The translations under genes were made by a program, and so were the position numbers. A model generated the notes under the pieces. The model was not told the DNA's origin and ran no database searches. It saw only the letters and a program-made list of their open reading frames with translations. 64,000 nt of DNA from Brumimicrobium oceani (GTDB lineage: Bacteria; Bacteroidota; Bacteroidia; Flavobacteriales_D; Crocinitomicaceae), in NCBI RefSeq assembly GCF_003143775.1, contig NZ_QFRJ01000002.1:1-64000 (forward strand), written 5' to 3'. Shown in pieces: positions 31,977 to 48,628 of this stretch (position 1 is the stretch's first letter; every line of letters starts with the position of its first letter).

Positions 31977-32024
31977 CCCAAGGCCACGAGAAGCTGCGCT
32001 AAATTTCGCGGCAGCTTGGGGGCT
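31977..32024. repeat. Palindromic repeat, copy 1
   Basis: The imperfect palindrome beginning cccaaggccacgagaagctg and ending gcagcttgggggct is nearly the same as the sequence after the ParE-type toxin genes at 40031-40083 and 48051-48103. Here it sits where the first half of a yoeB gene should be. Confidence 0.75.
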
Positions 32025-32726: not shown

Positions 32727-33617
32727 TTAATAAACCTTATCCTTGTCAGGCATCTCTTCAAAATCACTAGGGTTTACAATTATTATTGGAAGAGCAACTT
32801 TTTGAACCCCCTCTAGTACTGCTTCTGGAATCTGTTTAATTGTTAGCTTTAATAATTTAACTAGATTGTTAAACCCTTGTTCCCCTTCCATAGCGCCGTC
32901 TCTAAGAAATGTATCATAAATGTTTTCACCAAATGATTTTTCACTTGGACTAACAGATTCTTTAGGTTGGGTCGTTGAACCACTGTTAAGATTTTCATTA
33001 CCAATGTACATTTCTTCTCGTTTCCATACGCCCTCTTCTACTTCCTCAATTAAATCTAACTTAAGACCAGAATCATCTAGAAAATTATCAAAAAGCACTG
33101 GAACAGGGTCTTTATTATAATCAGTTTTTAACTCTTCTCCTCCTTTGTTTAATGAGTTTTTAGCCCAATCGACATTCTTATCTTTATCTTTCCAAGGTTT
33201 GCCAACTATTTCCTTTGCTGTAGCCATCAGATTTTCAAAATTCTTATCTTCGTTATAAAGTTTAATAGCAGCTCTCATTAAATCACTTTGTACTTTGGAA
33301 TTAAAAACTAGTTTCATTTCCAAACCCTCTAACTCAATAGCATGTATTAAATTATTCTCACTAAAAGCATAAGGACTATTGTGAGGATATTCAGCTGTCA
33401 AAGGGTCAACAGCAAAGAACCTCCCGACCCTTGGGTCGTGCATACGATATTTGAAGTTTACGCTATTTCCTTCACCCTTAATCTCATCATCAACTTCCTG
33501 TCCTTGGAAGCCATAACGGTATGAACCCACACAACTAATTCCGCTGACATTCAAATTATTACACACCACTTTTAGTGGTGATAAAGTTTCGTTATATGTC
33601 AGTTTCTTGCATCCCAT
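32727..33617 (-). CDS. Short RHS-core protein with variable tail (tail 2)
   Basis: A 296-aa protein that starts [18 protein letters not shown] and continues through the RHS core ([20 protein letters not shown], then [20 protein letters not shown]). After about residue 95 comes a tail with no similarity I recognise. Short orphan RHS proteins of this design are common in Bacteroidota. The first 37 codons lie inside the 8-kb element (up to the core at 33507), while the rest is outside it. This ORF is therefore a junction product. The following membrane-protein gene may be its partner. Confidence 0.75.
33507..33529. repeat. RHS-motif core repeat, left junction
   Basis: The core gaagccataacggta followed by tgaaccca is shared by the left, middle (41527-41549) and right (49547-49569) junctions. 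Left of 33507 the sequence encodes tail 2 (QGQEVDD); right of it, the element. I read it as the left attachment site. Confidence 0.75.
33564..33580. repeat. Small perfect palindrome near the element end
   Basis: caccact and agtggtg flank ttt, about 40 bases inside the element from the core, within the codons for LSPLKVV. It could be an arm-type site for a recombinase, or may simply reflect coding. The copy-2 equivalent is 41584-41600. Confidence 0.4.
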
Positions 33618-33637
33618 TGAGAACTCTAAATTAAGTG

Positions 33638-33677
33638 TTTTTTTCTTTCAAATGAAAATTCTAGTGAAAGAAAAAAA
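33638..33677. terminator. Bidirectional terminator-like hairpin
   Basis: A 13-bp stem of T-run plus ctttca with its complement encloses a 13-base loop, just upstream of the MGCKKLTY start. Long T-runs on both strands would allow termination in either direction, separating the RHS ORF from the non-coding region. Confidence 0.5.
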
Positions 33678-33679
33678 AT

Positions 33680-34400
33680 CACGCCTGGGATAACAGCTCT
33701 TTGACGATGTTTAATAAACTCTTCACAGAGAAAGTTTATTAAAAAAGGAGAAGTCTGGAGCCAGGAAGATCTTAGTTAAAAAAGAAAAAATTGTTTATTC
33801 AACATTGACGAAGAGCCGCCCTCGGCAGGAGCCTGCAGAGCAACCTACCTGAGCTAAGCGAAGGGAAAAAACATCTGATAAGCGGAGTGTGTTCCGACTA
33901 TGGAGTTTACGCAATAGAAGTGGCAAAACGAAGCTGCGAACGCACGCGAATGGAGTGAGGGTGGAAGTTGCAGAAGTTTTGAGGAGTTCCGACGATAAAC
34001 GCAACGACCTATGTTGCGTGCAAAAAATGCACAAGTTTACGAGCATTTTTTTGTAGACAACACAAGGCTGTGGCGTGATTTTTTTGTATTCCATTGAAAG
34101 AAAAAAGACCAACTTTTAGGAACGAAGAAGTTGGGCTAAATTGACTTTACAAAAAGCATGACACAGCCGAAGCCCGAAGCGACTCAGCGGTGAGCCAAAC
34201 AAGAAGTGGCGGTGGATGTAAGCTGTATTGAGGCACGAAAATACGGCTTGCAGACAAAGTAGCCATGAATGACGAGCGCACGCAACGTAATGAATAAAAC
34301 AAGTGAAGTGAAGCAATGCTTGCAAAAGCTTTGTGTAACGAAACGACAAAAACAAGGGCGAAAGCGCAGCGAAGCTCTGTATTACCCTTGTTTTTGTGTT
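33680..34400 (+). ncRNA. Candidate large structured non-coding RNA with boxA-like motif
   Basis: About 720 bases, richer in G+C than the surroundings, without a convincing ORF. On the plus strand GCTCTTTGA (33696-33704) matches the boxA antitermination element of rRNA leaders. Many stems follow: 33710-33743 (11 bp), 33999-34019 (7 bp), 34022-34051 (9 bp), 34220-34249 (10 bp with a G-U) and 34346-34397 (13 bp, followed by gtttt, possible terminator). Two minus-strand frames here (33795-34112, 34116-34355) look like chance. Transcription and strand are inferred. Confidence 0.45.
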
Positions 34401-34451
34401 TTATGAATAAAGTGAGTACGTGAGGAATACCATATTTCCCCCGTTTTTTCT

Positions 34452-34622
34452 TTAGCTATTCCTTTCATTCGAAGCCTTTTTCTTAGCATCTTCTCTAAAC
34501 ATTTTCTGTAATCGCAAAACTTTCTCTGCCGTTTCATTTGGAATGTCAAACCAATGCTTAGAACCATCTTTTTTCAAAATATAAGCTCTTCTTGTGTTCT
34601 CTTCTGTTTTCATGTCTTTCAT
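34452..34622 (-). CDS. Small 56-aa protein at the end of the recombinase operon
   Basis: The frame starts MKDMKTEENTRRAYILKKDG and ends at TAA (34452-34454). The ATG overlaps the stop of the upstream recombinase (ATGA), a strong sign of coupled translation. The protein is highly charged (Lys/Arg/Glu), with a WFDIPNETAEKVLRLQKMF helix. No family is recognised; a small accessory or DNA-binding factor for recombination is plausible. Confidence 0.6.
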   Translation of the reverse strand: MKDMKTEENTRRAYILKKDGSKHWFDIPNETAEKVLRLQKMFREDAKKKASNERNS

Positions 34623-35476
34623 TTTAATGGATGATATTTTTGAACCTCCTTTTTTAACTCCTCAACGTTCGTTTGCTTATATTTCTCGGTAGCTGATGGA
34701 TATTTATGGCCAGAAAAAACTTGAACAACTCTTAAATCATTTCCAGATTTTAAAAGATTGGTGATCACGCTTTGGCGGATGGTTTTTGGATTTAGATTTC
34801 TGTCTAAAAATAAGTGCTTAAACGTTCCCACTAAATAACTGATTTGTTCTCCAGTTTCAGGGTTTCCGAGTTTGTTGATGATTAAAATATTGGATTTTCT
34901 TTTTATGATTTTTGGTCTAACTTCAGTAATGTACTTATGAAAAATGAGGATCTGTTTAGATTTTAATTTCAAAGTTCTACTGTTCAATTTTGAAGAAGAT
35001 TTAATGTAAATTTCAGCCTTTTCTAAATCAAGATCTTTAAGTTCTATTCTTGTTAATTCTCCAGTTGTTAAGCCTTGATAAATCAGTAAACTTAAAACAA
35101 CTTGATTCTTGGTTTTTAAATTAATATACCGCTCTTTTCTGTCTAAAAGCTGTTCTAATTCATCACTTGTAAATAAATCTTGAAGTTGGATATTTCTATT
35201 TTGTTTGTCTTTTAAATTGATAAACTTGCAAGGATGATCTTGCCGAAGGTCGGCAGCCACTAGAAAACTGTAATATTTCTTTAAGCTGTATAAAATCGTT
35301 CTTACGCTCTGCGGATTTTTATACTGTTCTCTTAGCTTTCCGATATAGTCCATAATATCGCTGTAAGTTGCTGTTTTATGGTTTGGATTTGCTTTTTGGT
35401 AAATCTGTATGTCTCGTAAATATCTATCTGCTGTGCCTTTAGTGTGGCGTTTATTTAAGTAGTCTTCTAGTTTCAT
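34619..35476 (-). CDS. Tyrosine recombinase-like protein with degenerate active site
   Basis: A 285-aa protein with the phage-integrase layout: an N-terminal SAM-like core-binding domain (about 1-85) and a catalytic domain. The second His is kept in SGHKY (His257), the nucleophile candidate is Tyr266 (ATEKYKQ), and Arg234 lies in KTIRQS. However, the first Arg (usual GLR) is Thr137 in GLTTGEL, and the HxLRH box reads KTIRQ. With two or three catalytic positions lost, it is probably an accessory partner of the neighbouring recombinase. It starts 15 bases after that gene. Confidence 0.8.
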   Translation of the reverse strand: MKLEDYLNKRHTKGTADRYLRDIQIYQKANPNHKTATYSDIMDYIGKLREQYKNPQSVRTILYSLKKYYSFLVAADLRQDHPCKFINLKDKQNRNIQLQDLFTSDELEQLLDRKERYINLKTKNQVVLSLLIYQGLTTGELTRIELKDLDLEKAEIYIKSSSKLNSRTLKLKSKQILIFHKYITEVRPKIIKRKSNILIINKLGNPETGEQISYLVGTFKHLFLDRNLNPKTIRQSVITNLLKSGNDLRVVQVFSGHKYPSATEKYKQTNVEELKKEVQKYHPLK

Positions 35477-35491
35477 AGTTTATTGTTTTTC

Positions 35492-36373
35492 TTAAAGTTT
35501 ATCCAATTGATTTTTACTCACTTTAGCATAAATCTGAGTGCTTTCTAAAAAGCTGTGTCCTAAAAAATCTCTTACGTTTTCTATGCTTAAACCATTCTCC
35601 AGTAAATGCGTAGCGATGGAATGGCGAAGACTGTGAAGGCTTATATTTCGACTTCGCTCAATATCCGCCTTCTCTAATTGTGCTTTATCTATCAACTCTT
35701 TCAGCGTTTTGACAAGCATTTTTGGATTTACTCTTCTGCCCATTTGTCCTGTTAGAAAAGCTGTTTCCCCTGGCTTTGATCTGCGTTCTTTTAAAGCATA
35801 GTTTAGAAGGTCATTCTTTACGTTTTCACTCATTGGAACAACTCTTCTTTTTGCTCCCTTTCCTTCTCTAACATACAGAAGTGAACTCCTAAAGTGAACA
35901 TCCTTTATATTCAAATTAATTCCTTCAGATCTTCTAAGGCCACAGCCGTAATAAATTCCCAAAACAGCTCTTTGCCAGTGATTTTCGCAAGTCTCATAAA
36001 GCTCACCTACTTCCTTTAAACTTAAGATTTCTCTTGGCTTTGTTTTAGGCGCCTCGAACTCAAGACCGCTGATTGGATTCATTTGTATTTTTCCGTTTGC
36101 TTCCAGCCATTTAAAGAACAGTTTTAAGCCGTAAATATGATGGTTAATGTGGTTTTCGCTCAGCGTTCCGGGTTTTCTTTTATTGGGCCTGGTTTGCAAA
36201 TACTCATAATGGGTTTGGATTTGCTCGGAAGTGATTGCCGGTATATTTTTGATTTGCTGAACCTTTAAAAACTCCTTTACGCAAGAGGGAAGCATTAAAA
36301 CCGTGCTTTTAGAATAACCCAAACGCTCTAAATGACTTTTAAAATTTTTGACTGCCTTTTCAATTTCTTCCAT
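35492..36373 (-). CDS. Tyrosine recombinase / integrase, complete active site
   Basis: A 293-aa XerC/D-like protein. From the ATG at 36373 the catalytic residues are Arg147 (GLRRSEG), His247 and Arg250 (LHSLRHS), His273 (LGHS) and Tyr282 (TQIYAKV), with a Lys in the GKGAKRR strand. The N-terminal domain is the SAM-like DNA-binding fold. A GTG two codons upstream is an alternative start. It is probably the enzyme that joins and cuts the element at the RHS core, together with the degenerate partner encoded downstream. Confidence 0.88.
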   Translation of the reverse strand: MEEIEKAVKNFKSHLERLGYSKSTVLMLPSCVKEFLKVQQIKNIPAITSEQIQTHYEYLQTRPNKRKPGTLSENHINHHIYGLKLFFKWLEANGKIQMNPISGLEFEAPKTKPREILSLKEVGELYETCENHWQRAVLGIYYGCGLRRSEGINLNIKDVHFRSSLLYVREGKGAKRRVVPMSENVKNDLLNYALKERRSKPGETAFLTGQMGRRVNPKMLVKTLKELIDKAQLEKADIERSRNISLHSLRHSIATHLLENGLSIENVRDFLGHSFLESTQIYAKVSKNQLDKL

Positions 36374-36390
36374 ACACACTTTCTTGGGTC

Positions 36391-36453
36391 TTGGGTCGAT
36401 TTCTTCTGTAAGTACTGATTTAATTGGATTTTACACCTTTTAAATCGACCCAA
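36391..36453. repeat. Perfect 12-bp inverted repeat between primase and integrase genes
   Basis: ttgggtcgattt (36391-36402) and its exact complement (36442-36453) are 39 bases apart, with further partial copies alongside (cttgggtc at 36383-36390, cctaaatcgatt near 36461). It lies in the only sizeable gap of the minus-strand operon. It could be a regulator or recombinase binding site, or a replication start used by the primase. Copy 2: 44411-44473. Confidence 0.5.
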
Positions 36454-36491
36454 AACCGAACCTAAATCGATTCATTCATAGATTATTCTCT

Positions 36492-39041
36492 TTATAACTG
36501 GGTTAATTGATTCTTGAGATTGTCCTTGATGCGCTGTTTTAAAGCCGTATTATCATCCCAGTAACTGATCTTATATTTTGTTGCTCCATGCATTCCTGTT
36601 CCCTTTCTTTCGATATATTCTAACTCCAAAAGGTCATTTATAAAACGCTGCATTTGGGTTTTACTAATTCTTAGATCCTGGCGGATTTCTCGCTGTGTAA
36701 ATTCATATTCCTTTCCTCTGGTTTCTACATACGCTTTCAGATCCTCATAAAAAAGCCTTAGACTCCCATCCAGTTCATCCACTTTTAAGATGATGCTATC
36801 AAACATAATTTCAATTGCGATTTGAAGATCTTCTTTTGCTGTAATAAGGCGTTCTTGTTTGTCTTTCTTGCGCTGATACTGGTTGAGTAGCGTAATTTGC
36901 TTTACAAAGCTTTGAAAGTTACTGTTGAGTCTTCGGATTTTAAAAGCTTGCTCTGGTAATTTTATTTTACTGGCAAAAGGATTAATAACTTCCATTGGTT
37001 TTAATAATCGGATACAGTTCTGCAGGAGCGTTTGAATTTTATCTTTTTGATTGGTTTTTATTTCTCCTGCTGCACTTCTGTTTTGATAATCTATAATTTT
37101 GGCCGTCTGTTCCTTACTTTCATCCACCGCTATCACAAAACAACGGCTTAGATTATCCTCATAAATTGCGCCTCTTGTTGTGGCTGCCATACTGCTAATT
37201 GGACCTTTTACAACTCTAATTTGAGTTCTGTAACTTCCATATTCAGTATCTTTTGCACTCACAGAACTTCTTAACTCATCATTACTTTGAAGTTCTCTAA
37301 AAGCAAGCTCAGCTTCATCCTTTAAGCCGTCATAATCTTCAATAACCACCAGTTTATTTTGCAGATCATACTCTCCATAATTATAAAAACTGCTCTCGGT
37401 AACTCTGGTTAAACGAATCACGTTTTCGAGTGGCATAAAATCCGTAATTTGTCTTACAAGATGCGTTTTCCCACTTCCAGAACTTCCCTGAACTAAAGCA
37501 TGGAGTGTGTTTTCAAATTTATGACTGACTGCAATACAAAATAAAAATACTCGGTTTCCCTGTTCTCCAATTACTCCAGACTGACCAATAAGCTGATTAA
37601 TCTTTTGGATCAGATCATCGCTTTTCAAAAGCTTAAAAGCTTCCTCTTTCTCATCTTCAGGAACTACATAATGCTTTTCCTGTTCCTTTTCTTCTTTCTC
37701 TTTTATTTCTTGTTCTCTATATTCATCCAGCAGATCTGCTAAGTAATTTAAATCTTGTTCCAATAAATCTGCTCTTAATTCCAATTTTTCAGAAGCTTCT
37801 CTAGCCGTTTTTTCTACTTGTTTATCTTCGTATAAATCCAGTCTTACACGGCTCTTTTTCCTTGTTTCAAGGTGGATAATATGTAAACTGATTACAAGTC
37901 TGTCCAGCCCGTTTTTGGCTATTCCTCCCTTGATTTCATATTTAGCCGTATCGGTTTGGTATTTTAAATTGTATTTGTGATTTGTATCGAGTTTGTAAGT
38001 GTTTTGGGTAGATTCAGGTAGTTTTTTGTTTTCAACTGTTTCTTGCTCTTTTGAAAGCGTGTCTCCCGAAGTGTCGGGATCGACTGAAAAGAAAAAAGAT
38101 TCAGCTTTATTGATTAAATCAGAGAAAATTCCCTTATCATGACTTCCAGAAAGTTCATTTATATCTGTTCCTTCAGGAGTTTGAACGATTCTAATTGTGG
38201 TTTCTGAAAACAAGCTTTTTAAATACTTCGCATGCTTTAAATTGGCTTCTTTTCCTGACGGATCGCCATCAAAGAACAAAATAAGTTCCTCTAAACTTTC
38301 GATTTGTTGGATGGCGTGAATATGTTCAGCTGTAAGGCCGTTTGTGCCGTAAAGCGATAGTAAAGCAAAGCTTTCTGTAATCTCCTTATTATTTAAAAGT
38401 GAAGCCGTATCAATTACACTTTCGGTTAAAATCAGTTTTTTTGTTCCTCTATTTGGATAGCCTGGATAAAGTCCAATTCTGTTTTTACTATAAAAATGAT
38501 TTCCTCCAGTTGTTCTTACTGATCTGCCATACAAAGAGACAATGTCTCCCTTTTCATTTTTCAAAGGAAAAGTAATGCAACCACGTAAATAATTAAACCT
38601 TGAACTTTTAAAAGCATTGTAACCGACTTCAAGACTCTTCCAATCAAGATTTCGGCTTTCTGCATATTTTCTTGCTGTGCTACTGGCTAGAAAACTGCTT
38701 TGCATTTGTTGGAAGTCGCTTTGGTAGTTTGGTTTTGTTGCGGTTTGGGATTGGGTTAAATTTTCTTGATTTACTTCTCCAGTTCTCTCTTGTAACCAAT
38801 CCAAAGCTTTAGGAAGTTCTAAAGATTTGTATTTCTTCACCAGTTCCACTACATCCATTGTTCCTGCCGAACAATTCCCACTAAAACACGTAACAATTTG
38901 CTTTTCTTTAGAAAACTGAAAGCTTGGTGTTTTATCATTGTGAAAAGGACAATGCGCTTTTCCATGCTTATCGATTTTTATTCCAAGCTCTTCTCCGATC
39001 TGTAGAATGTCGAGTTTGCTTTTGAGGGATGGGATGTTCAT
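36492..39041 (-). CDS. Primase (CHC2-TOPRIM) fused to a P-loop ATPase
   Basis: An 849-aa protein. Residues 31-57 form a DnaG-type zinc finger (CPFH, then TCFSGNC). Residues about 200-275 are a TOPRIM domain with acidic TESVID and FFDGDPSG. Residues about 430-458 are a charged coiled coil. Residues about 495-640 are an ATPase with Walker A GSSGSGKT (519-526) and Walker B VVIEDYDG. The C-terminus (about 770-835) looks like a winged helix. Primase-ATPase fusions are typical of replicating mobile elements and phage satellites, so the excised element probably replicates itself. The promoter faces the XRE gene. Confidence 0.85.
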   Translation of the reverse strand: MNIPSLKSKLDILQIGEELGIKIDKHGKAHCPFHNDKTPSFQFSKEKQIVTCFSGNCSAGTMDVVELVKKYKSLELPKALDWLQERTGEVNQENLTQSQTATKPNYQSDFQQMQSSFLASSTARKYAESRNLDWKSLEVGYNAFKSSRFNYLRGCITFPLKNEKGDIVSLYGRSVRTTGGNHFYSKNRIGLYPGYPNRGTKKLILTESVIDTASLLNNKEITESFALLSLYGTNGLTAEHIHAIQQIESLEELILFFDGDPSGKEANLKHAKYLKSLFSETTIRIVQTPEGTDINELSGSHDKGIFSDLINKAESFFFSVDPDTSGDTLSKEQETVENKKLPESTQNTYKLDTNHKYNLKYQTDTAKYEIKGGIAKNGLDRLVISLHIIHLETRKKSRVRLDLYEDKQVEKTAREASEKLELRADLLEQDLNYLADLLDEYREQEIKEKEEKEQEKHYVVPEDEKEEAFKLLKSDDLIQKINQLIGQSGVIGEQGNRVFLFCIAVSHKFENTLHALVQGSSGSGKTHLVRQITDFMPLENVIRLTRVTESSFYNYGEYDLQNKLVVIEDYDGLKDEAELAFRELQSNDELRSSVSAKDTEYGSYRTQIRVVKGPISSMAATTRGAIYEDNLSRCFVIAVDESKEQTAKIIDYQNRSAAGEIKTNQKDKIQTLLQNCIRLLKPMEVINPFASKIKLPEQAFKIRRLNSNFQSFVKQITLLNQYQRKKDKQERLITAKEDLQIAIEIMFDSIILKVDELDGSLRLFYEDLKAYVETRGKEYEFTQREIRQDLRISKTQMQRFINDLLELEYIERKGTGMHGATKYKISYWDDNTALKQRIKDNLKNQLTQL

Positions 39042-39075
39042 TTGAAAAATATTTTAATTTATTTTTTATGTAACT

Positions 39076-39184
39076 ATTAGACGCAAAAATAGATTATATT
39101 TCCAAAACAACAAGTAATTATCTTATTTTTTATCGTCTAATAATGCCGTATATTTGTAAGGAATTAAGATTAATAGACGCAAAA
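39076..39184. promoter_or_regulatory. Divergent promoters with three repressor-like operators
   Basis: The motif attagacg(caaaa) occurs at 39076-39088 (direct), 39134-39141 (inverted, cgtctaat) and 39172-39184 (direct, aatagacgcaaaa). The first overlaps a TATTTTTG -7 box for the primase (39084-39091, minus). The other two flank TATATTTG (39149-39156), the -7 box for the XRE gene. The layout resembles a phage-type switch controlled by the XRE protein. Copy 2: 47096-47204. Confidence 0.6.
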
Positions 39185-39194
39185 CAGGCTTATT

Positions 39195-39533
39195 ATGGAT
39201 AAAATAGCGATAGTAATGACCAATCTTAGAAAGGAAAAAGGATGGTCGCAAACAGATTTAGCTAATCAAAGCACAGTATCTCGTGAAATGATTAGTAAAT
39301 ACGAAAGAGGGATTGCCATTCCTTCAGTAGATGCTGCAAAAAAGATTGCTGATGCTTTTGATGTTTCACTAGATTATTTAGTTGGAGAAGGCATCAATGC
39401 ATCTTTTGACAAAAGCACATTAAAACGATTACAGGAAATTCAAAATATGAAACCCGACTTTAGAACACATCTCTTTTCTGTGATTGATTCAGTGATTAGA
39501 GATTATAAAACTCGTCAAAACTACGCATCATGA
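39195..39533 (+). CDS. XRE-family transcriptional regulator
   Basis: A 112-aa protein with an N-terminal helix-turn-helix (residues about 5-60: NLRKEKGWSQTDLANQSTVS, then REMISKYERGIAIPS) and a short helical C-terminus for dimerisation. It is divergent from the primase gene, and three operator-like motifs lie between. It overlaps the following antitoxin gene by 4 bases (ATGA). It may control both the toxin operon and element replication. Confidence 0.85.
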   Translation: MDKIAIVMTNLRKEKGWSQTDLANQSTVSREMISKYERGIAIPSVDAAKKIADAFDVSLDYLVGEGINASFDKSTLKRLQEIQNMKPDFRTHLFSVIDSVIRDYKTRQNYAS

Positions 39534-39739
39534 AACAAATCACTTTAAATATCGATGAAACCAAGTTTAAAGCCTTTTTAAGCTTTATCAAGACCCTTGA
39601 CTATGTTTCGGTATCGGATGAAATAGATATTCCTATAGAACAGCAACAAGAAGCTGAGAGGCGATTAAAACTTGTAGAGGAAGGCAAAATGAAAACAAGA
39701 AGCTGGAGTGAAGCCAAACAAGATATTTTTAAACGATAA
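39530..39739 (+). CDS. Small antitoxin-like protein
   Basis: A 69-aa protein starting MKQITLNIDETKFKAFLSFI, a pattern seen in antitoxins paired with ParE/RelE toxins in Bacteroidota; its C-terminal half is charged (RRLKLVEEGKMKTRSWSE). It overlaps the XRE gene by 4 bases and the toxin gene by 1 base, which indicates tight coupling. The assignment relies on size, order and the N-terminal pattern. Confidence 0.7.
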   Translation: MKQITLNIDETKFKAFLSFIKTLDYVSVSDEIDIPIEQQQEAERRLKLVEEGKMKTRSWSEAKQDIFKR

Positions 39740-40032
39740 TGGAGTATTCTTTATCTATTTCAGAAGCTGCCGAGCTCGATATCAGAGATGCTTTTCTTTG
39801 GTATGAAGATCAAAAAGACAACCTAGGTCTCACCTTTGAAAAACACATCTCTAAAACCATCCAAAATATTCAGAAAAATCCTTTGAAGATTCAAATTCGG
39901 TACAATCAAACCAGAGTCGCTTTTTTAAAGAAATTTCCCTACGGTGTGCATTTTAATATCATTGAGAATGAAATCATTATTGTTGCTATTTTTCATACTT
40001 CTAGAAGTCCACAGAAGTGGAGTAAAAGGTAA
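39739..40032 (+). CDS. ParE/RelE-superfamily toxin
   Basis: A 97-aa protein with the ParE/RelE fold pattern: ISEAAELDIRDAFLWYEDQK at the N-terminus, then IRYNQTRVAFLKKFPYGVHF and IIIVAIFHTSRSPQKW at the C-terminus, where basic residues end the fold. The likely target is gyrase (ParE) or ribosome-bound mRNA (RelE); the sequence does not decide. It forms a three-gene unit with the antitoxin and the XRE gene and may stabilise the element. A hairpin follows at once. Confidence 0.82.
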   Translation: MEYSLSISEAAELDIRDAFLWYEDQKDNLGLTFEKHISKTIQNIQKNPLKIQIRYNQTRVAFLKKFPYGVHFNIIENEIIIVAIFHTSRSPQKWSKR

Positions 40033-40083
40033 GCCCAAGGCCACGAGAAGCTGCGCTAATTCTCGCGGCAGCTTGGGGGCTTT
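40031..40083 (+). terminator. Palindromic repeat acting as toxin-operon terminator
   Basis: The imperfect hairpin from aagcccaaggccacgagaag to gcagcttgggggcttt overlaps the toxin stop codon and ends in a short T-run. Near-identical sequence occurs at 31977-32024. It may be a terminator, a mobile palindrome, or both. Confidence 0.6.
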
Positions 40084-40098
40084 GTAATTTGATGCAAA

Positions 40099-40599
40099 CT
40101 AATTATCACCCGTTATACTCTTCAGTAGCGAATTTTTGTTATCATGAACATGTAATAAATGTTTGAACATTAATCTACTTTTATTTCCCTTAATATTTAA
40201 TAAGTAATAACCTTCAAGCTTATCGATACCTGTTGCGGTAGGAACATAATTGTAAGTCCAAAATAAAGTACTGTCGACCTTAATATTAATACCACCCTCT
40301 ATATTAACAGATAACGAAAGGTTGTCAACATCCTGTATTCCAAGAGTACCATAAATCTTTACTGTGTCTCCCAAAATATAATCTATACTTCGAGATAAGG
40401 TTATGGGCACTAAATTCCCTTCAGAGTTAAATTTGTCCGTAATCCATACATTATTATCAATAATATGATTCAAGCTGTCATTCTTCGATTTGAGTAAAGT
40501 AATTTGTTTCTGTAAGGCTTTGTTTTTTTCTAAAGACCCTGAACAACTTATTACTGAAAATCCTAAAATCACCAGTAAGCTGAATGAAATATTTCTCAT
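40099..40599 (-). CDS. Lipoprotein downstream of RHS tail 1; possible immunity protein
   Basis: A 166-aa lipoprotein (signal FSLLVILGFSVISC, Cys19), then a short coiled coil (KALQKQITLLKSKND) and a beta-rich domain. No family is recognised. It starts 9 bases after the RHS-tail gene on the same strand. In RHS-type polymorphic toxin loci the small gene after the tail often encodes immunity. That function is only inferred here. Confidence 0.6.
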   Translation of the reverse strand: MRNISFSLLVILGFSVISCSGSLEKNKALQKQITLLKSKNDSLNHIIDNNVWITDKFNSEGNLVPITLSRSIDYILGDTVKIYGTLGIQDVDNLSLSVNIEGGINIKVDSTLFWTYNYVPTATGIDKLEGYYLLNIKGNKSRLMFKHLLHVHDNKNSLLKSITGDN

Positions 40600-40608
40600 A
40601 TGTTTTTT

Positions 40609-41637
40609 TTATTTTACTCTATTGGAAACCTTATGTTCCTCACCTTTTTTAACTTTTGTTGAATCAATTTTCGAATCTCGACCAGCCGGAGTAATCCACG
40701 TATGCTTTTGTTTTACCCAAATACTATCATTATTAACTCCATTGCTTGGGCTCTCACCACTAGAACTTGAAGAAGCAGAACCACTTCCCGTGCCTCCACC
40801 TCCATCAAGCGGAACAAGTTCATTCAAATCTTGAACCATATCTACGATATCCTTTATTTTATCCGCATCATCACTCCCTAAACTTCCGTTCTTTAATGCA
40901 CCTAATGCATCAAGTAAATCTCCTATGTCTCGACTCTCAACATCATTTTCTGATATCGTTTTTGTGGGGGAAGCTCCGCCATCATCTGAGGTCAACCTAA
41001 ATCCACCAGGTTGTGTTTCTGGAGATAAACCAACTCCCCACGTCCAACCATCAGCTTCATCCTTTATATATCCATTTGGTTTTACATTTGAAGATCCATA
41101 AGAAAGATCAAAATCTTTTATTCCATCCTCATATAGAATTTCATAATTGGTCGTAATAGAAGTCGTTCCATCCTGATGCTGTGTGATTGTTTTAACAGTT
41201 CTGAAATCATAATAATTATTGGAATGAACATCTTTAGAACTACCGAATGCTATTATCTTAGTCGAGTGAGCTGTAAGAACATCCAAACGAGTTGTTTTAC
41301 CTGTCTTTTCGTTAGTAATTATATAAGATAAATATTCATCATTACCATCTGGATCAGTATACATTAAAGGATTGTTTTTAAAAGCTTGATAAGGTGATAA
41401 AAATGGTTTTTTACCTTCTAACGCATCTCTACTTAACCATCTCCCCACTCTTGGGTCATAAATCCTGGCCCCAAAATCATAGCTATTTCCTTCACCTTTA
41501 ATGTTATCATCTTTCTCCATCCCATTGAAGCCATAACGGTATGAACCCACACAACTAATTCCGCTGACATTCAAATTATTACACACCACTTTTAGTGGTG
41601 ATAAAGTTTCGTTATATGTCAGTTTCTTGCATCCCAT
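40609..41637 (-). CDS. Short RHS-core protein with tail 1, intact at the internal junction
   Basis: A 342-aa protein: N-terminal [18 protein letters not shown], core GSYRYGFNGMEKDDNIKGEG and IYDPRVGRWLSRDALEG (about 40-85), then an unrecognised tail with a Gly/Ser linker (GGGGTGSGSASSSSSG, about 285-300) and a basic C-terminus. The N-terminal 37 codons come from element copy 2 and the rest from copy 1, so this gene spans the unit junction. The same junction would exist in a circular form of the element. The product may be a toxin, but no catalytic motif is visible. Confidence 0.75.
   Translation of the reverse strand: MGCKKLTYNETLSPLKVVCNNLNVSGISCVGSYRYGFNGMEKDDNIKGEGNSYDFGARIYDPRVGRWLSRDALEGKKPFLSPYQAFKNNPLMYTDPDGNDEYLSYIITNEKTGKTTRLDVLTAHSTKIIAFGSSKDVHSNNYYDFRTVKTITQHQDGTTSITTNYEILYEDGIKDFDLSYGSSNVKPNGYIKDEADGWTWGVGLSPETQPGGFRLTSDDGGASPTKTISENDVESRDIGDLLDALGALKNGSLGSDDADKIKDIVDMVQDLNELVPLDGGGGTGSGSASSSSSGESPSNGVNNDSIWVKQKHTWITPAGRDSKIDSTKVKKGEEHKVSNRVK
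41527..41549. repeat. RHS-motif core repeat, internal junction
   Basis: Identical to the left junction core. It joins the two copies and equals the junction expected in a circularised element (attP-like). Confidence 0.75.
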
Positions 41638-41657
41638 TGAGAACTCTAAATTAAGTG

Positions 41658-41697
41658 TTTTTTTCTTTCAAATGAAAATTCTAGTGAAAGAAAAAAA
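41658..41697. terminator. Bidirectional terminator-like hairpin, copy 2
   Basis: Same 13-bp stem as at 33638-33677, between the internal RHS start and the second non-coding region. Confidence 0.5.
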
Positions 41698-41699
41698 AT

Positions 41700-42420
41700 C
41701 ACGCCTGGGATAACAGCTCTTTGACGATGTTTAATAAACTCTTCACAGAGAAAGTTTATTAAAAAAGGAGAAGTCTGGAGCCAGGAAGATCTTAGTTAAA
41801 AAAGAAAAAATTGTTTATTCAACATTGACGAAGAGCCGCCCTCGGCAGGAGCCTGCAGAGCAACCTACCTGAGCTAAGCGAAGGGAAAAAACATCTGATA
41901 AGCGGAGTGTGTTCCGACTATGGAGTTTACGCAATAGAAGTGGCAAAACGAAGCTGCGAACGCACGCGAATGGAGTGAGGGTGGAAGTTGCAGAAGTTTT
42001 GAGGAGTTCCGACGATAAACGCAACGACCTATGTTGCGTGCAAAAAATGCACAAGTTTACGAGCATTTTTTTGTAGACAACACAAGGCTGTGGCGTGATT
42101 TTTTTGTATTCCATTGAAAGAAAAAAGACCAACTTTTAGGAACGAAGAAGTTGGGCTAAATTGACTTTACAAAAAGCATGACACAGCCGAAGCCCGAAGC
42201 GACTCAGCGGTGAGCCAAACAAGAAGTGGCGGTGGATGTAAGCTGTATTGAGGCACGAAAATACGGCTTGCAGACAAAGTAGCCATGAATGACGAGCGCA
42301 CGCAACGTAATGAATAAAACAAGTGAAGTGAAGCAATGCTTGCAAAAGCTTTGTGTAACGAAACGACAAAAACAAGGGCGAAAGCGCAGCGAAGCTCTGT
42401 ATTACCCTTGTTTTTGTGTT
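41700..42420 (+). ncRNA. Candidate large structured non-coding RNA, copy 2
   Basis: Same sequence as 33680-34400, including the boxA-like GCTCTTTGA (41716-41724) and all listed stems. It adds no independent evidence, because the copies do not differ. Confidence 0.45.
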
Positions 42421-42471
42421 TTATGAATAAAGTGAGTACGTGAGGAATACCATATTTCCCCCGTTTTTTCT

Positions 42472-42642
42472 TTAGCTATTCCTTTCATTCGAAGCCTTTT
42501 TCTTAGCATCTTCTCTAAACATTTTCTGTAATCGCAAAACTTTCTCTGCCGTTTCATTTGGAATGTCAAACCAATGCTTAGAACCATCTTTTTTCAAAAT
42601 ATAAGCTCTTCTTGTGTTCTCTTCTGTTTTCATGTCTTTCAT
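42472..42642 (-). CDS. Small 56-aa protein, copy 2
   Basis: Same as the gene at 34452-34622, with the same ATGA overlap with the upstream recombinase stop. Highly charged, unknown function. Confidence 0.6.
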   Translation of the reverse strand: MKDMKTEENTRRAYILKKDGSKHWFDIPNETAEKVLRLQKMFREDAKKKASNERNS

Positions 42643-43496
42643 TTTAATGGATGATATTTTTGAACCTCCTTTTTTAACTCCTCAACGTTCGTTTGCTTAT
42701 ATTTCTCGGTAGCTGATGGATATTTATGGCCAGAAAAAACTTGAACAACTCTTAAATCATTTCCAGATTTTAAAAGATTGGTGATCACGCTTTGGCGGAT
42801 GGTTTTTGGATTTAGATTTCTGTCTAAAAATAAGTGCTTAAACGTTCCCACTAAATAACTGATTTGTTCTCCAGTTTCAGGGTTTCCGAGTTTGTTGATG
42901 ATTAAAATATTGGATTTTCTTTTTATGATTTTTGGTCTAACTTCAGTAATGTACTTATGAAAAATGAGGATCTGTTTAGATTTTAATTTCAAAGTTCTAC
43001 TGTTCAATTTTGAAGAAGATTTAATGTAAATTTCAGCCTTTTCTAAATCAAGATCTTTAAGTTCTATTCTTGTTAATTCTCCAGTTGTTAAGCCTTGATA
43101 AATCAGTAAACTTAAAACAACTTGATTCTTGGTTTTTAAATTAATATACCGCTCTTTTCTGTCTAAAAGCTGTTCTAATTCATCACTTGTAAATAAATCT
43201 TGAAGTTGGATATTTCTATTTTGTTTGTCTTTTAAATTGATAAACTTGCAAGGATGATCTTGCCGAAGGTCGGCAGCCACTAGAAAACTGTAATATTTCT
43301 TTAAGCTGTATAAAATCGTTCTTACGCTCTGCGGATTTTTATACTGTTCTCTTAGCTTTCCGATATAGTCCATAATATCGCTGTAAGTTGCTGTTTTATG
43401 GTTTGGATTTGCTTTTTGGTAAATCTGTATGTCTCGTAAATATCTATCTGCTGTGCCTTTAGTGTGGCGTTTATTTAAGTAGTCTTCTAGTTTCAT
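42639..43496 (-). CDS. Degenerate tyrosine recombinase-like protein, copy 2
   Basis: Same as 34619-35476: 285 aa, Thr137 in place of the first catalytic Arg and KTIRQ in place of HxLRH, with His257 and Tyr266 kept. Probably accessory to the intact recombinase upstream. Confidence 0.8.
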   Translation of the reverse strand: MKLEDYLNKRHTKGTADRYLRDIQIYQKANPNHKTATYSDIMDYIGKLREQYKNPQSVRTILYSLKKYYSFLVAADLRQDHPCKFINLKDKQNRNIQLQDLFTSDELEQLLDRKERYINLKTKNQVVLSLLIYQGLTTGELTRIELKDLDLEKAEIYIKSSSKLNSRTLKLKSKQILIFHKYITEVRPKIIKRKSNILIINKLGNPETGEQISYLVGTFKHLFLDRNLNPKTIRQSVITNLLKSGNDLRVVQVFSGHKYPSATEKYKQTNVEELKKEVQKYHPLK

Positions 43497-43511
43497 AGTT
43501 TATTGTTTTTC

Positions 43512-44393
43512 TTAAAGTTTATCCAATTGATTTTTACTCACTTTAGCATAAATCTGAGTGCTTTCTAAAAAGCTGTGTCCTAAAAAATCTCTTACGTTTT
43601 CTATGCTTAAACCATTCTCCAGTAAATGCGTAGCGATGGAATGGCGAAGACTGTGAAGGCTTATATTTCGACTTCGCTCAATATCCGCCTTCTCTAATTG
43701 TGCTTTATCTATCAACTCTTTCAGCGTTTTGACAAGCATTTTTGGATTTACTCTTCTGCCCATTTGTCCTGTTAGAAAAGCTGTTTCCCCTGGCTTTGAT
43801 CTGCGTTCTTTTAAAGCATAGTTTAGAAGGTCATTCTTTACGTTTTCACTCATTGGAACAACTCTTCTTTTTGCTCCCTTTCCTTCTCTAACATACAGAA
43901 GTGAACTCCTAAAGTGAACATCCTTTATATTCAAATTAATTCCTTCAGATCTTCTAAGGCCACAGCCGTAATAAATTCCCAAAACAGCTCTTTGCCAGTG
44001 ATTTTCGCAAGTCTCATAAAGCTCACCTACTTCCTTTAAACTTAAGATTTCTCTTGGCTTTGTTTTAGGCGCCTCGAACTCAAGACCGCTGATTGGATTC
44101 ATTTGTATTTTTCCGTTTGCTTCCAGCCATTTAAAGAACAGTTTTAAGCCGTAAATATGATGGTTAATGTGGTTTTCGCTCAGCGTTCCGGGTTTTCTTT
44201 TATTGGGCCTGGTTTGCAAATACTCATAATGGGTTTGGATTTGCTCGGAAGTGATTGCCGGTATATTTTTGATTTGCTGAACCTTTAAAAACTCCTTTAC
44301 GCAAGAGGGAAGCATTAAAACCGTGCTTTTAGAATAACCCAAACGCTCTAAATGACTTTTAAAATTTTTGACTGCCTTTTCAATTTCTTCCAT
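43512..44393 (-). CDS. Tyrosine recombinase / integrase, copy 2
   Basis: Same as 35492-36373: complete R-H-R-H-Y set (Arg147, His247, Arg250, His273, Tyr282 from the ATG at 44393). Either copy could supply the activity for both elements. Confidence 0.88.
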   Translation of the reverse strand: MEEIEKAVKNFKSHLERLGYSKSTVLMLPSCVKEFLKVQQIKNIPAITSEQIQTHYEYLQTRPNKRKPGTLSENHINHHIYGLKLFFKWLEANGKIQMNPISGLEFEAPKTKPREILSLKEVGELYETCENHWQRAVLGIYYGCGLRRSEGINLNIKDVHFRSSLLYVREGKGAKRRVVPMSENVKNDLLNYALKERRSKPGETAFLTGQMGRRVNPKMLVKTLKELIDKAQLEKADIERSRNISLHSLRHSIATHLLENGLSIENVRDFLGHSFLESTQIYAKVSKNQLDKL

Positions 44394-44410
44394 ACACACT
44401 TTCTTGGGTC

Positions 44411-44473
44411 TTGGGTCGATTTCTTCTGTAAGTACTGATTTAATTGGATTTTACACCTTTTAAATCGACCCAA
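44411..44473. repeat. Perfect 12-bp inverted repeat, copy 2
   Basis: Same as 36391-36453, between the primase and recombinase genes of the second unit. Confidence 0.5.
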
Positions 44474-44511
44474 AACCGAACCTAAATCGATTCATTCATA
44501 GATTATTCTCT

Positions 44512-47061
44512 TTATAACTGGGTTAATTGATTCTTGAGATTGTCCTTGATGCGCTGTTTTAAAGCCGTATTATCATCCCAGTAACTGATCTTATATTTTG
44601 TTGCTCCATGCATTCCTGTTCCCTTTCTTTCGATATATTCTAACTCCAAAAGGTCATTTATAAAACGCTGCATTTGGGTTTTACTAATTCTTAGATCCTG
44701 GCGGATTTCTCGCTGTGTAAATTCATATTCCTTTCCTCTGGTTTCTACATACGCTTTCAGATCCTCATAAAAAAGCCTTAGACTCCCATCCAGTTCATCC
44801 ACTTTTAAGATGATGCTATCAAACATAATTTCAATTGCGATTTGAAGATCTTCTTTTGCTGTAATAAGGCGTTCTTGTTTGTCTTTCTTGCGCTGATACT
44901 GGTTGAGTAGCGTAATTTGCTTTACAAAGCTTTGAAAGTTACTGTTGAGTCTTCGGATTTTAAAAGCTTGCTCTGGTAATTTTATTTTACTGGCAAAAGG
45001 ATTAATAACTTCCATTGGTTTTAATAATCGGATACAGTTCTGCAGGAGCGTTTGAATTTTATCTTTTTGATTGGTTTTTATTTCTCCTGCTGCACTTCTG
45101 TTTTGATAATCTATAATTTTGGCCGTCTGTTCCTTACTTTCATCCACCGCTATCACAAAACAACGGCTTAGATTATCCTCATAAATTGCGCCTCTTGTTG
45201 TGGCTGCCATACTGCTAATTGGACCTTTTACAACTCTAATTTGAGTTCTGTAACTTCCATATTCAGTATCTTTTGCACTCACAGAACTTCTTAACTCATC
45301 ATTACTTTGAAGTTCTCTAAAAGCAAGCTCAGCTTCATCCTTTAAGCCGTCATAATCTTCAATAACCACCAGTTTATTTTGCAGATCATACTCTCCATAA
45401 TTATAAAAACTGCTCTCGGTAACTCTGGTTAAACGAATCACGTTTTCGAGTGGCATAAAATCCGTAATTTGTCTTACAAGATGCGTTTTCCCACTTCCAG
45501 AACTTCCCTGAACTAAAGCATGGAGTGTGTTTTCAAATTTATGACTGACTGCAATACAAAATAAAAATACTCGGTTTCCCTGTTCTCCAATTACTCCAGA
45601 CTGACCAATAAGCTGATTAATCTTTTGGATCAGATCATCGCTTTTCAAAAGCTTAAAAGCTTCCTCTTTCTCATCTTCAGGAACTACATAATGCTTTTCC
45701 TGTTCCTTTTCTTCTTTCTCTTTTATTTCTTGTTCTCTATATTCATCCAGCAGATCTGCTAAGTAATTTAAATCTTGTTCCAATAAATCTGCTCTTAATT
45801 CCAATTTTTCAGAAGCTTCTCTAGCCGTTTTTTCTACTTGTTTATCTTCGTATAAATCCAGTCTTACACGGCTCTTTTTCCTTGTTTCAAGGTGGATAAT
45901 ATGTAAACTGATTACAAGTCTGTCCAGCCCGTTTTTGGCTATTCCTCCCTTGATTTCATATTTAGCCGTATCGGTTTGGTATTTTAAATTGTATTTGTGA
46001 TTTGTATCGAGTTTGTAAGTGTTTTGGGTAGATTCAGGTAGTTTTTTGTTTTCAACTGTTTCTTGCTCTTTTGAAAGCGTGTCTCCCGAAGTGTCGGGAT
46101 CGACTGAAAAGAAAAAAGATTCAGCTTTATTGATTAAATCAGAGAAAATTCCCTTATCATGACTTCCAGAAAGTTCATTTATATCTGTTCCTTCAGGAGT
46201 TTGAACGATTCTAATTGTGGTTTCTGAAAACAAGCTTTTTAAATACTTCGCATGCTTTAAATTGGCTTCTTTTCCTGACGGATCGCCATCAAAGAACAAA
46301 ATAAGTTCCTCTAAACTTTCGATTTGTTGGATGGCGTGAATATGTTCAGCTGTAAGGCCGTTTGTGCCGTAAAGCGATAGTAAAGCAAAGCTTTCTGTAA
46401 TCTCCTTATTATTTAAAAGTGAAGCCGTATCAATTACACTTTCGGTTAAAATCAGTTTTTTTGTTCCTCTATTTGGATAGCCTGGATAAAGTCCAATTCT
46501 GTTTTTACTATAAAAATGATTTCCTCCAGTTGTTCTTACTGATCTGCCATACAAAGAGACAATGTCTCCCTTTTCATTTTTCAAAGGAAAAGTAATGCAA
46601 CCACGTAAATAATTAAACCTTGAACTTTTAAAAGCATTGTAACCGACTTCAAGACTCTTCCAATCAAGATTTCGGCTTTCTGCATATTTTCTTGCTGTGC
46701 TACTGGCTAGAAAACTGCTTTGCATTTGTTGGAAGTCGCTTTGGTAGTTTGGTTTTGTTGCGGTTTGGGATTGGGTTAAATTTTCTTGATTTACTTCTCC
46801 AGTTCTCTCTTGTAACCAATCCAAAGCTTTAGGAAGTTCTAAAGATTTGTATTTCTTCACCAGTTCCACTACATCCATTGTTCCTGCCGAACAATTCCCA
46901 CTAAAACACGTAACAATTTGCTTTTCTTTAGAAAACTGAAAGCTTGGTGTTTTATCATTGTGAAAAGGACAATGCGCTTTTCCATGCTTATCGATTTTTA
47001 TTCCAAGCTCTTCTCCGATCTGTAGAATGTCGAGTTTGCTTTTGAGGGATGGGATGTTCAT
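44512..47061 (-). CDS. Primase-ATPase fusion, copy 2
   Basis: Same as 36492-39041: 849 aa with CHC2 zinc finger, TOPRIM domain, coiled coil, P-loop ATPase (GSSGSGKT 519-526) and winged-helix-like end. Its promoter region again faces an XRE gene. Confidence 0.85.
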   Translation of the reverse strand: MNIPSLKSKLDILQIGEELGIKIDKHGKAHCPFHNDKTPSFQFSKEKQIVTCFSGNCSAGTMDVVELVKKYKSLELPKALDWLQERTGEVNQENLTQSQTATKPNYQSDFQQMQSSFLASSTARKYAESRNLDWKSLEVGYNAFKSSRFNYLRGCITFPLKNEKGDIVSLYGRSVRTTGGNHFYSKNRIGLYPGYPNRGTKKLILTESVIDTASLLNNKEITESFALLSLYGTNGLTAEHIHAIQQIESLEELILFFDGDPSGKEANLKHAKYLKSLFSETTIRIVQTPEGTDINELSGSHDKGIFSDLINKAESFFFSVDPDTSGDTLSKEQETVENKKLPESTQNTYKLDTNHKYNLKYQTDTAKYEIKGGIAKNGLDRLVISLHIIHLETRKKSRVRLDLYEDKQVEKTAREASEKLELRADLLEQDLNYLADLLDEYREQEIKEKEEKEQEKHYVVPEDEKEEAFKLLKSDDLIQKINQLIGQSGVIGEQGNRVFLFCIAVSHKFENTLHALVQGSSGSGKTHLVRQITDFMPLENVIRLTRVTESSFYNYGEYDLQNKLVVIEDYDGLKDEAELAFRELQSNDELRSSVSAKDTEYGSYRTQIRVVKGPISSMAATTRGAIYEDNLSRCFVIAVDESKEQTAKIIDYQNRSAAGEIKTNQKDKIQTLLQNCIRLLKPMEVINPFASKIKLPEQAFKIRRLNSNFQSFVKQITLLNQYQRKKDKQERLITAKEDLQIAIEIMFDSIILKVDELDGSLRLFYEDLKAYVETRGKEYEFTQREIRQDLRISKTQMQRFINDLLELEYIERKGTGMHGATKYKISYWDDNTALKQRIKDNLKNQLTQL

Positions 47062-47095
47062 TTGAAAAATATTTTAATTTATTTTTTATGTAACT

Positions 47096-47204
47096 ATTAG
47101 ACGCAAAAATAGATTATATTTCCAAAACAACAAGTAATTATCTTATTTTTTATCGTCTAATAATGCCGTATATTTGTAAGGAATTAAGATTAATAGACGC
47201 AAAA
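47096..47204. promoter_or_regulatory. Divergent promoters with operator-like repeats, copy 2
   Basis: Same three attagacg motifs (47096, 47154 inverted, 47192) and same TAnnTTTG boxes as in copy 1. The XRE protein from either copy could act on both. Confidence 0.6.
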
Positions 47205-47214
47205 CAGGCTTATT

Positions 47215-47553
47215 ATGGATAAAATAGCGATAGTAATGACCAATCTTAGAAAGGAAAAAGGATGGTCGCAAACAGATTTAGCTAATCAAAGCACAGTATC
47301 TCGTGAAATGATTAGTAAATACGAAAGAGGGATTGCCATTCCTTCAGTAGATGCTGCAAAAAAGATTGCTGATGCTTTTGATGTTTCACTAGATTATTTA
47401 GTTGGAGAAGGCATCAATGCATCTTTTGACAAAAGCACATTAAAACGATTACAGGAAATTCAAAATATGAAACCCGACTTTAGAACACATCTCTTTTCTG
47501 TGATTGATTCAGTGATTAGAGATTATAAAACTCGTCAAAACTACGCATCATGA
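47215..47553 (+). CDS. XRE-family transcriptional regulator, copy 2
   Basis: Same 112-aa protein as 39195-39533, with 4-base overlap to the antitoxin gene. Confidence 0.85.
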   Translation: MDKIAIVMTNLRKEKGWSQTDLANQSTVSREMISKYERGIAIPSVDAAKKIADAFDVSLDYLVGEGINASFDKSTLKRLQEIQNMKPDFRTHLFSVIDSVIRDYKTRQNYAS

Positions 47554-47759
47554 AACAAATCACTTTAAATATCGATGAAACCAAGTTTAAAGCCTTTTTA
47601 AGCTTTATCAAGACCCTTGACTATGTTTCGGTATCGGATGAAATAGATATTCCTATAGAACAGCAACAAGAAGCTGAGAGGCGATTAAAACTTGTAGAGG
47701 AAGGCAAAATGAAAACAAGAAGCTGGAGTGAAGCCAAACAAGATATTTTTAAACGATAA
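47550..47759 (+). CDS. Small antitoxin-like protein, copy 2
   Basis: Same 69-aa protein as 39530-39739; overlaps the toxin start by 1 base. Confidence 0.7.
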   Translation: MKQITLNIDETKFKAFLSFIKTLDYVSVSDEIDIPIEQQQEAERRLKLVEEGKMKTRSWSEAKQDIFKR

Positions 47760-48052
47760 TGGAGTATTCTTTATCTATTTCAGAAGCTGCCGAGCTCGAT
47801 ATCAGAGATGCTTTTCTTTGGTATGAAGATCAAAAAGACAACCTAGGTCTCACCTTTGAAAAACACATCTCTAAAACCATCCAAAATATTCAGAAAAATC
47901 CTTTGAAGATTCAAATTCGGTACAATCAAACCAGAGTCGCTTTTTTAAAGAAATTTCCCTACGGTGTGCATTTTAATATCATTGAGAATGAAATCATTAT
48001 TGTTGCTATTTTTCATACTTCTAGAAGTCCACAGAAGTGGAGTAAAAGGTAA
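47759..48052 (+). CDS. ParE/RelE-superfamily toxin, copy 2
   Basis: Same 97-aa protein as 39739-40032. Two copies of the pair mean that loss of one element would leave antitoxin in place, so loss of both is the event that would be penalised. Confidence 0.82.
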   Translation: MEYSLSISEAAELDIRDAFLWYEDQKDNLGLTFEKHISKTIQNIQKNPLKIQIRYNQTRVAFLKKFPYGVHFNIIENEIIIVAIFHTSRSPQKWSKR

Positions 48053-48103
48053 GCCCAAGGCCACGAGAAGCTGCGCTAATTCTCGCGGCAGCTTGGGGGC
48101 TTT
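48051..48103 (+). terminator. Palindromic repeat / terminator, copy 2
   Basis: Same as 40031-40083, overlapping the toxin stop. Confidence 0.6.
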
Positions 48104-48118
48104 GTAATTTGATGCAAA

Positions 48119-48619: not shown

Positions 48620-48628
48620 ATGTTTTTT

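Follow-up and report, generated by a model that had tools for sequence, protein, structure and literature searches.

Gene content of the locus

The window analysed here comprises 64,000 nt of Brumimicrobium oceani contig NZ_QFRJ01000002.1, and all coordinates below are window positions. The interval 33680-34400 is situated between a divergent Rhs-type gene (32727-33617, minus strand) and the 3′ end of a block of recombinase and primase-like genes (34619-39041, minus strand). As a preliminary description of this DNA had noted, the interval is richer in G+C than its surroundings (0.437 versus 0.353 for the window) and carries plus-strand structure: its predicted folding on that strand is better than that of 20 out of 20 dinucleotide shuffles (z -5.46), and the minus strand also exceeds all 20, less markedly (z -2.63). 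The structured region was said to lie in both copies of a repeated element, which agrees with the sequence, as the two copies, in tandem at an offset of +8020, are identical across 708 bases. The features of the locus are as follows.

32727..33617, minus strand: short Rhs-type protein with a variable tip, beginning MGCKKLTY...; divergent from the putative RNA, with an N-terminal part matched in other loci
33462..49569, no strand: two tandem 8020-bp units carrying the putative RNA, delimited by sequence comparison
33639..33680, no strand: A+T-rich palindrome in the gap that separates the 5′ end of the Rhs-tip gene from the putative RNA, from sequence
33696..33704, plus strand: boxA-like GCTCTTTGA, present in the window, not conserved and outside the putative RNA
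33740..34447, plus strand: putative large structured RNA, copy 1; 3′ part placed by homology and covariation, 5′ end approximate
34109..34134, plus strand: middle hairpin CCAACTTTT/..AAGTTGG, from sequence; the consensus there is CAAGTGTG/CACTCTTG, with weaker covariation
34147..34447, plus strand: conserved 3′ domain, copy 1 (nhmmer E 9.1e-54; covariance model R1, 89.5 bits on 34147-34282)
34619..35476, minus strand: tyrosine recombinase 'XerA', 285 aa (PF00589, E 2.5e-20); gene and putative RNA converge, their 3′ ends 172 bases apart
35492..36379, minus strand: tyrosine recombinase 'XerB', 295 aa (PF00589, E 1.1e-32)
36492..39041, minus strand: primase-like protein with a CHC2 zinc finger and Toprim; NTP-binding motif recognised by eye
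41760..42467, plus strand: second copy of the putative large structured RNA, with the same sequence as the first; model R1 matches both
42167-42467, plus strand: conserved 3′ domain, copy 2

The protein at 32727..33617 has no Pfam match, and we take it to be of the Rhs type from its motifs; Rhs-annotated genes occupy the equivalent position in locus L231. Each tandem unit contains a Rhs-type tip, a candidate immunity gene, an HTH gene, a ParE-like toxin, the primase and the two tyrosine recombinases. The units differ at 13 positions in 8088 bases, 12 of which fall at 33477-33506 in the Rhs tip, so that the differences gather at the start of the tip as if tips had been swapped there.

Borders and covarying structure of the element

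The preliminary description had proposed a covariance analysis of homologues lying next to related recombinases; homologues were found in such places, and more often elsewhere, and their stems covary strongly. When 240 genomes of the window's family were searched at the DNA level, 30 gave matches, in part to the adjacent Rhs leader; a homologue from another genome used as query matched 60 of the 240 at E 1e-4. A profile of the last ~330 bases gave 72 matches in the loci collected at that stage, of which 58 cover nearly the whole domain. Alignment A2, which holds 49 sequences of the 3′ domain, was derived from these 58 by dropping copies of more than 92% identity and the second window copy, removing L170 because of its long insertions, and adding L206 by hand; alignment A3 consists of 28 of the 49.

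A conserved fold of the 3′ domain is very well supported by these comparisons. RNAalifold predicts 37 pairs from the 49 copies, 31 with changes on both sides, and 36 of the 37 were used in the covariation count. In A2, 97.6% of 1752 cells pair, compared with 77.0% in shuffled alignments and 41-53% when the pairing is slid along the alignment. Changes on both sides occur in 30 of 36 pairs and in 337 cells (21.8 and 86.1, respectively, after shuffling; 32-67 cells after sliding), and the covariation score is 0.565 (0.181 shuffled, 0.089-0.145 slid). None of 500 shuffles equals A2 on any covariation measure; kinship alone can lift sequences above shuffles, and the number of different pair types, like the slid control, is a safeguard against this. 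Four helices are specified here, all with respect to the 49 copies.

34206-34210/34262-34266, plus strand: helix 2, 5 of 5 pairs changed on both sides
34213-34221/34248-34256, plus strand: helix 3, 7 of 7 pairs changed on both sides
34296-34301/34397-34402, plus strand: long-range helix 4, AAAACA/TGTTTT, 7 of 7 pairs changed on both sides; encloses the last stem
34348-34358/34385-34395, plus strand: helix 6, the last stem, AAAAACAAGGG/CCCTTGTTTTT, 9 of 12 pairs changed on both sides; once read as a terminator

In homologues, AAAACA/TGTTTT is replaced by CTTTTT/AAAAAG, and the last stem by TTTGCAAGGG/CCCTTGCAAA or CCCGAAAAGCC/GGCTTTATTCGGG. Because the paired bases of the last stem change jointly, it is best regarded as a helix inside the molecule and not as the terminator-like hairpin it had been taken for; the T-run is missing there in several homologues (e.g. 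those with TTTGCAAGGG/CCCTTGCAAA), and conserved sequence continues for ~40-50 bases past it. The unpaired positions of the 3′ domain consist of A (0.34), G (0.28), C (0.19) and U (0.19) and include conserved A-rich stretches. In the middle part of the element, both-side changes occur in 10 of 15 pairs (4-7 when slid) and in 53 cells (10-19 when slid). One 5′ block shows them in 4 of 14 pairs, within the 2-6 of the slid control, but in 31 cells compared with 6-15, and the other 5′ block has 3 pairs only. Taken by itself, the structural support for the 5′ domain is thus weak.

Both ends of the element recur. The 5′ end reads ...AAAAGGAAAAACAGCCTTGAGC in 44 of 57 copies within 6 errors, with a further 5 copies carrying the motif at 7 errors, at least one of them (the window's) by chance, and the 3′ end reads GAAGACC..TTTTCC. 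The window copy has no recognisable 5′ motif, the best match of the motif search being chance-like (7 errors, at 33400), and its 5′ end was set by eye where AAAAAAGGAG..GGAGCCAG at 33741 resembles the conserved 5′ block. The element extends from ~33740 to 34447 rather than from 33680 to 34400, as initially delimited; the first ~60 bases of that interval are therefore foreign to the element, and the element's last ~47 bases lie outside the interval. The two ends also pair with each other. Among the 41 of 57 copies with recognisable ends (the window copy excluded), the duplex formed by a copy's own combination of ends has a mean energy of -10.16 kcal/mol, compared with -7.42 (sd 0.38) for permuted combinations, none of 5000 being as low. 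The own partner ranks among the best 10% in 16 of the 41 copies, and in some copies the pairing extends far into sequence that differs between copies.

Upstream signals were counted in 58 copies with the 1000 bases preceding the 3′ domain. The boxA-like GCTCTTTGA, originally assigned to the RNA, is exact only in the window's two identical copies and is located 5′ of the conserved RNA, for which reasons it was rejected as a part of it; with one mismatch it occurs in 7 of 58 copies, and shuffles average 4.2 (range 1-8). A promoter consensus that we take to be of the Bacteroidota type lies upstream in only 9 of 58 copies, compared with 2.5 in shuffles.

Distribution, island genes and cargo

Model R1 was built from the first half of the 3′ domain (28 sequences, 154 positions). 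Among 399 genomes of the order it matches 67 at E 0.01, including 7 that lie outside the window's family, where two of the matches are weak; at E 0.001 it matches 8 of 395 genomes in a sample of the phylum, namely the source genome of the window and seven from other orders of the class. Two matches are on plasmids of Cytophagales: one of 64.8 bits in Marivirga, 2 kb downstream of a broken copy of the gene c0 described below, and a weak one in Aureibacter (18.1 bits, E about 0.008). In the window's own genome a third match lies at C1:72273-72440, with a c0 gene 6 kb upstream of it; a second c0 (C34) is followed by a 3′ fragment only (L205). A scan of a species-genome collection with the exact 3′ motif pattern returned 5 stretches only, because this motif varies. 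With positions 33462-36400 as query, blastn gave no match in 50,697 phage records and nothing useful among plasmid records; blastn is blind to diverged copies.

The element is found recurrently in variable gene islands of Bacteroidota, often downstream of c0 or beside a recombinase pair. c0 encodes a protein of ~250 aa and is present in 73 of the 240 family genomes. Of 100 R1 matches in the family (a table from which matches outside the family were excluded), 60 lie no more than 30 kb from a c0 gene. The strand is shared in all 60 and c0 is upstream in 59, with a median separation of 3.9 kb; in the one exception c0 lies between two RNAs. The remaining 40 have no c0 within 30 kb. Conversely, 39 of 97 c0 genes (weak and partial rows excluded) have no RNA match downstream. 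Contig ends explain part of these unpaired cases, but some are on long contigs, e.g. G216:C2, G058:C2 and G102:C19. One genome, G060, carries six c0 genes and six RNAs, paired one to one. Among 43 c0 loci, a gene of ~90 aa, F1, comes next in 39, and a divergent HTH-like gene of 63 aa precedes c0 in 27. The order HTH-c0-F1-RNA also occurs in other families and orders (L272, L273, L279 and L280). This recurrent synteny is well supported by the loci compared.

The c0 protein has no match in phage records and nothing useful in viral contigs, its best matches to PDB sequences and to Pfam both have E 0.15, and a structure predicted without an alignment has a mean pLDDT of 33. Among the small neighbours of c0, Pfam yielded only a sub-threshold DNA-binding match for one 92-aa protein. 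Many islands, including L172, L173 and L181, hold a gene of the DUF6943 family (~139 aa; F3, 17 members) in antisense between c0 and the RNA, the label coming from a Pfam search with one member, in L066.

The other recurrent setting is the one seen in the window. Here XerA, the last gene of a primase-XerB-XerA row, points its 3′ end at that of the RNA; L091, L100, L284, L285 and, on a short contig, L079 share this order, and L281 combines both settings (primase-XerB-XerA, RNA, c0). Many Xer units have no RNA at that place (e.g. L087, L096 and L097), and in L095 the RNA is on the primase side of the unit; the RNA is therefore not essential to Xer units. The majority of the fetched RNA copies do not adjoin Rhs or Xer genes. 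L231 (Aureibacter plasmid pAT2, 1-18816) contains a tandem unit of like kind, of ~8.17 kb with a Rhs tip, an HTH gene, a CHC2 primase and two recombinases, which comes after a full-length 7-kb Rhs gene; in a gap of ~1 kb the RNA model matches weakly (18 bits).

Variable genes occupy the stretch from c0 to the RNA as well as the DNA past the RNA, and include defence reverse transcriptases, type I restriction, OloB and PDC-S60 proteins. A claim of enrichment in defence genes was rejected, since PADLOC (1e-10) labelled 6 of 20 genes just downstream compared with 3 of 10 window control genes. The cargo has a preferred orientation: the first mechanically called ORF of at least 100 aa beyond the RNA 3′ end is convergent in 39 of 54 cases (p 0.0007; 57 non-redundant copies, 3 left out as too near a contig end).

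Separate copies of the RNA 3′ end, which cover between 52 and about 200 of the profile's 328 positions, were found in L064, L065 (two), L073 and L189, only downstream and on the same strand among 60 copies examined; in L064 the first RNA copy is also incomplete. The remaining same-strand matches are the tandem window copies, the reciprocal match in L073 and a weak one in L067, and L075 has one 19-base match upstream on the other strand. L168 is different: upstream of its full RNA lies a fragment from the beginning of the domain (profile 6-98). These 3′ pieces could reflect repeated integration at the 3′ end of the RNA gene; tandem duplication followed by deletion could also produce them. In L073 (4323-8888), a recombinase-like gene, a Rhs-type tip, the RNA 3′ part, a second Rhs-type tip, a small gene and a full RNA in antisense form a row that resembles cassettes, each ended by RNA. 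In L065 (5912-16495), three RNA 3′-end copies on one strand, two without the rest of the RNA, divide blocks of cargo.

Nature of the element and a possible role

The locus carries a previously uncatalogued folded element of ~600-900 bases, which is most likely an RNA. We consider a family of large structured non-coding RNAs of this size (~600-900 nt), residing in variable gene islands of Bacteroidota, to be the best explanation and a probable one, judged from sequence comparisons. Points against it, besides the scarcity of G.U discussed below, are the weak support for the 5′ domain, the few upstream promoter matches, the window copy's lack of a recognisable 5′ motif, the modest rank of most own end pairings, and the c0 genes, Xer units and RNAs that occur apart from one another. 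This reading upholds the initial proposal of a large non-coding RNA, comparable in size to ROOL and GOLLD and identical with neither: the stems covary strongly, no reading frame is conserved, and Rfam has no match. No Rfam 15 family passed its gathering threshold in the window, and none did so at the RNA of 8 homologous loci; with the cut-off relaxed to E 10, the segment 33400-34620 gave only six chance-like matches to unrelated families (best E 0.57). Known Rfam RNAs (ROOL, GOLLD and OLE) were rejected for want of a covariance-model match, and the Rfam searches, which include intron models, likewise returned no group II intron.

The predicted better fold of the plus strand, the excess of G.U over A.C cells in the 3′ helices (32 versus 4) and the A-rich unpaired positions point to an RNA fold. 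The main rival is a folded single-stranded DNA site for tyrosine recombinases, resembling attC/attI or an origin and giving no stable RNA. G.U cells amount to 1.8% in the 3′ helices. The control, RNase P RNA from the same bacterial family, has 10.0% (25 copies used of the 30 retrieved, out of 56 genomes with a match; the other 5 had been cut without the conserved motif). Constraint at the DNA level would produce such a scarcity. The window element is adjoined by two tyrosine recombinases and a primase-like protein, the ends are complementary, 3′ ends recur separately in four loci (L064, L065, L073 and L189), and cargo 3′ ends tend to face the element, all as expected of such a site. However, the same 3′ helices favour G.U over A.C, the plus strand folds better, and unpaired A-rich stretches are conserved. 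G.U reaches 9.0% in one 5′ block and 7.2% in the middle part, although it is 2.9% in the other 5′ block and A.C is also higher in these parts. Moreover, of 43 c0 loci only 6 show a relative of the L175 integrase upstream, although the upstream DNA covered was short for many of them, and the element is far larger than attC sites. On balance we regard a DNA site as unlikely. As a separate observation, G.U is about five times rarer in the 3′ helices than in RNase P RNA even though both-side changes abound.

Two further readings fare worse. Since the window element fills the gap between the Rhs-tip and recombinase genes, it might be a cluster of cis-regulatory leaders or terminators of these genes with no free-standing RNA; yet it lies on the strand opposite both, and homologues keep their recurrent ends in many loci in which tblastn finds no Rhs or Xer genes, which makes this very improbable. 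That a small protein drives the conservation is scarcely credible. An ORF of 105 aa does exist in antisense (33795-34112, minus strand), and open runs are longer antisense than sense. Against this, stops interrupt five of the six frames in 49 of 49 copies of the 3′ domain and the sixth in 46 of 49, only 132 of 618 indels relative to the window row are multiples of three, and the helices covary. Protein coding was accordingly rejected: no open frame is conserved in the 3′ domain among the 49 copies, in keeping with the early impression that ORFs here arise by chance.

If the element is an RNA, as we favour, it would be transcribed from the plus strand, probably from its own promoter because antisense cargo separates it from c0 in many islands, and it may fold as one closed molecule. 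It could then work in trans as the structural RNA of the island, probably in a ribonucleoprotein with an island-encoded protein. Because the variable cargo tends to point its own 3′ end at that of the element, the RNA gene may mark the place at which cargo is joined; the cargo facing this end is the Xer/Rhs unit in the window and defence genes in some islands. A bolder and quite improbable version holds that the RNA is the core of a new kind of mobile island, forming complexes with c0 (and with XerA/XerB in Rhs units), the 3′ end of its own gene setting the junction for toxin or defence cargo, as an RNA-marked analogue of an integron.

According to one study, ROOL, GOLLD and OLE are RNAs named 'ornate', 'giant' or 'large' whose functions are poorly understood (PMC12286853). 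The same study presents ROOL as encoded by phages and prophages, with 659 nt in the solved example, a complex predicted fold and no function described, and GOLLD as having many members above 800 nt with a universally conserved 3′ region and a less conserved 5′ region; both are located in phages or prophages, often near tRNA islands (PMC12286853). The element resembles ROOL, so described, in size and in its complex predicted fold, and GOLLD in its conserved 3′ and less conserved 5′ regions. It differs from both in having no Rfam match and in its neighbours, which, as far as seen, are c0 islands and Xer-Rhs units rather than phages or tRNA islands: the window has no tRNAs, and 2 of 8 homologous loci have single tRNAs, away from the RNA. 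Like large ornate non-coding RNAs, the element has a covariation-backed secondary structure over several hundred nt, weakly so in the 5′ domain. The titles and abstract openings surveyed, from few subscription journals, contained no description of it, and the accessible part of a Flavobacterium psychrophilum transcriptome study (PMC9723704) held nothing bearing on it. Few bacterial RNAs are so large and structured, and the element would add a family from several Bacteroidota orders. Its recurrent protein-gene neighbour should make its role approachable genetically, and it would tie an RNA to variable cargo, namely Rhs tips and some anti-phage defence genes.

With respect to the proposed junction, tRNA and tmRNA genes serve as attachment sites. 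The element is similar in that the 3′ end of a putative RNA gene faces cargo and 3′ fragments lie downstream in a few loci; it differs in its large size and in its multiple copies per genome (six in G060), and integration here would be our interpretation of the gene order. Integron attI/attC sites are likewise structured sites by a tyrosine recombinase, with variable cargo in a preferred orientation. The element is far larger, its cargo is often multi-gene, and its recombinases match the general Phage_integrase family.

Other sequences in the tandem unit may also be sites of recombination. Palindromes similar to that at 33639..33680 occur before Rhs-type starts in L091 (2244; 2264-2298) and L084 (near 8982), with half of one in L074 and none at the second Rhs-type start of L091 or in L097; such A+T-rich palindromes, directly upstream of some MGC-type Rhs-tip genes, are candidate recombination sites of the Xer unit. 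A G+C-rich hairpin repeat of ~49 bp, CCCAAGGCCACGAGAAGCTGCG..., is located at 31977, 40034 and 48054: each tandem unit has one, and the third lies past the left end. It sits next to a toxin remnant that is presumably YoeB/RelE-like, and could mark the borders of the units.
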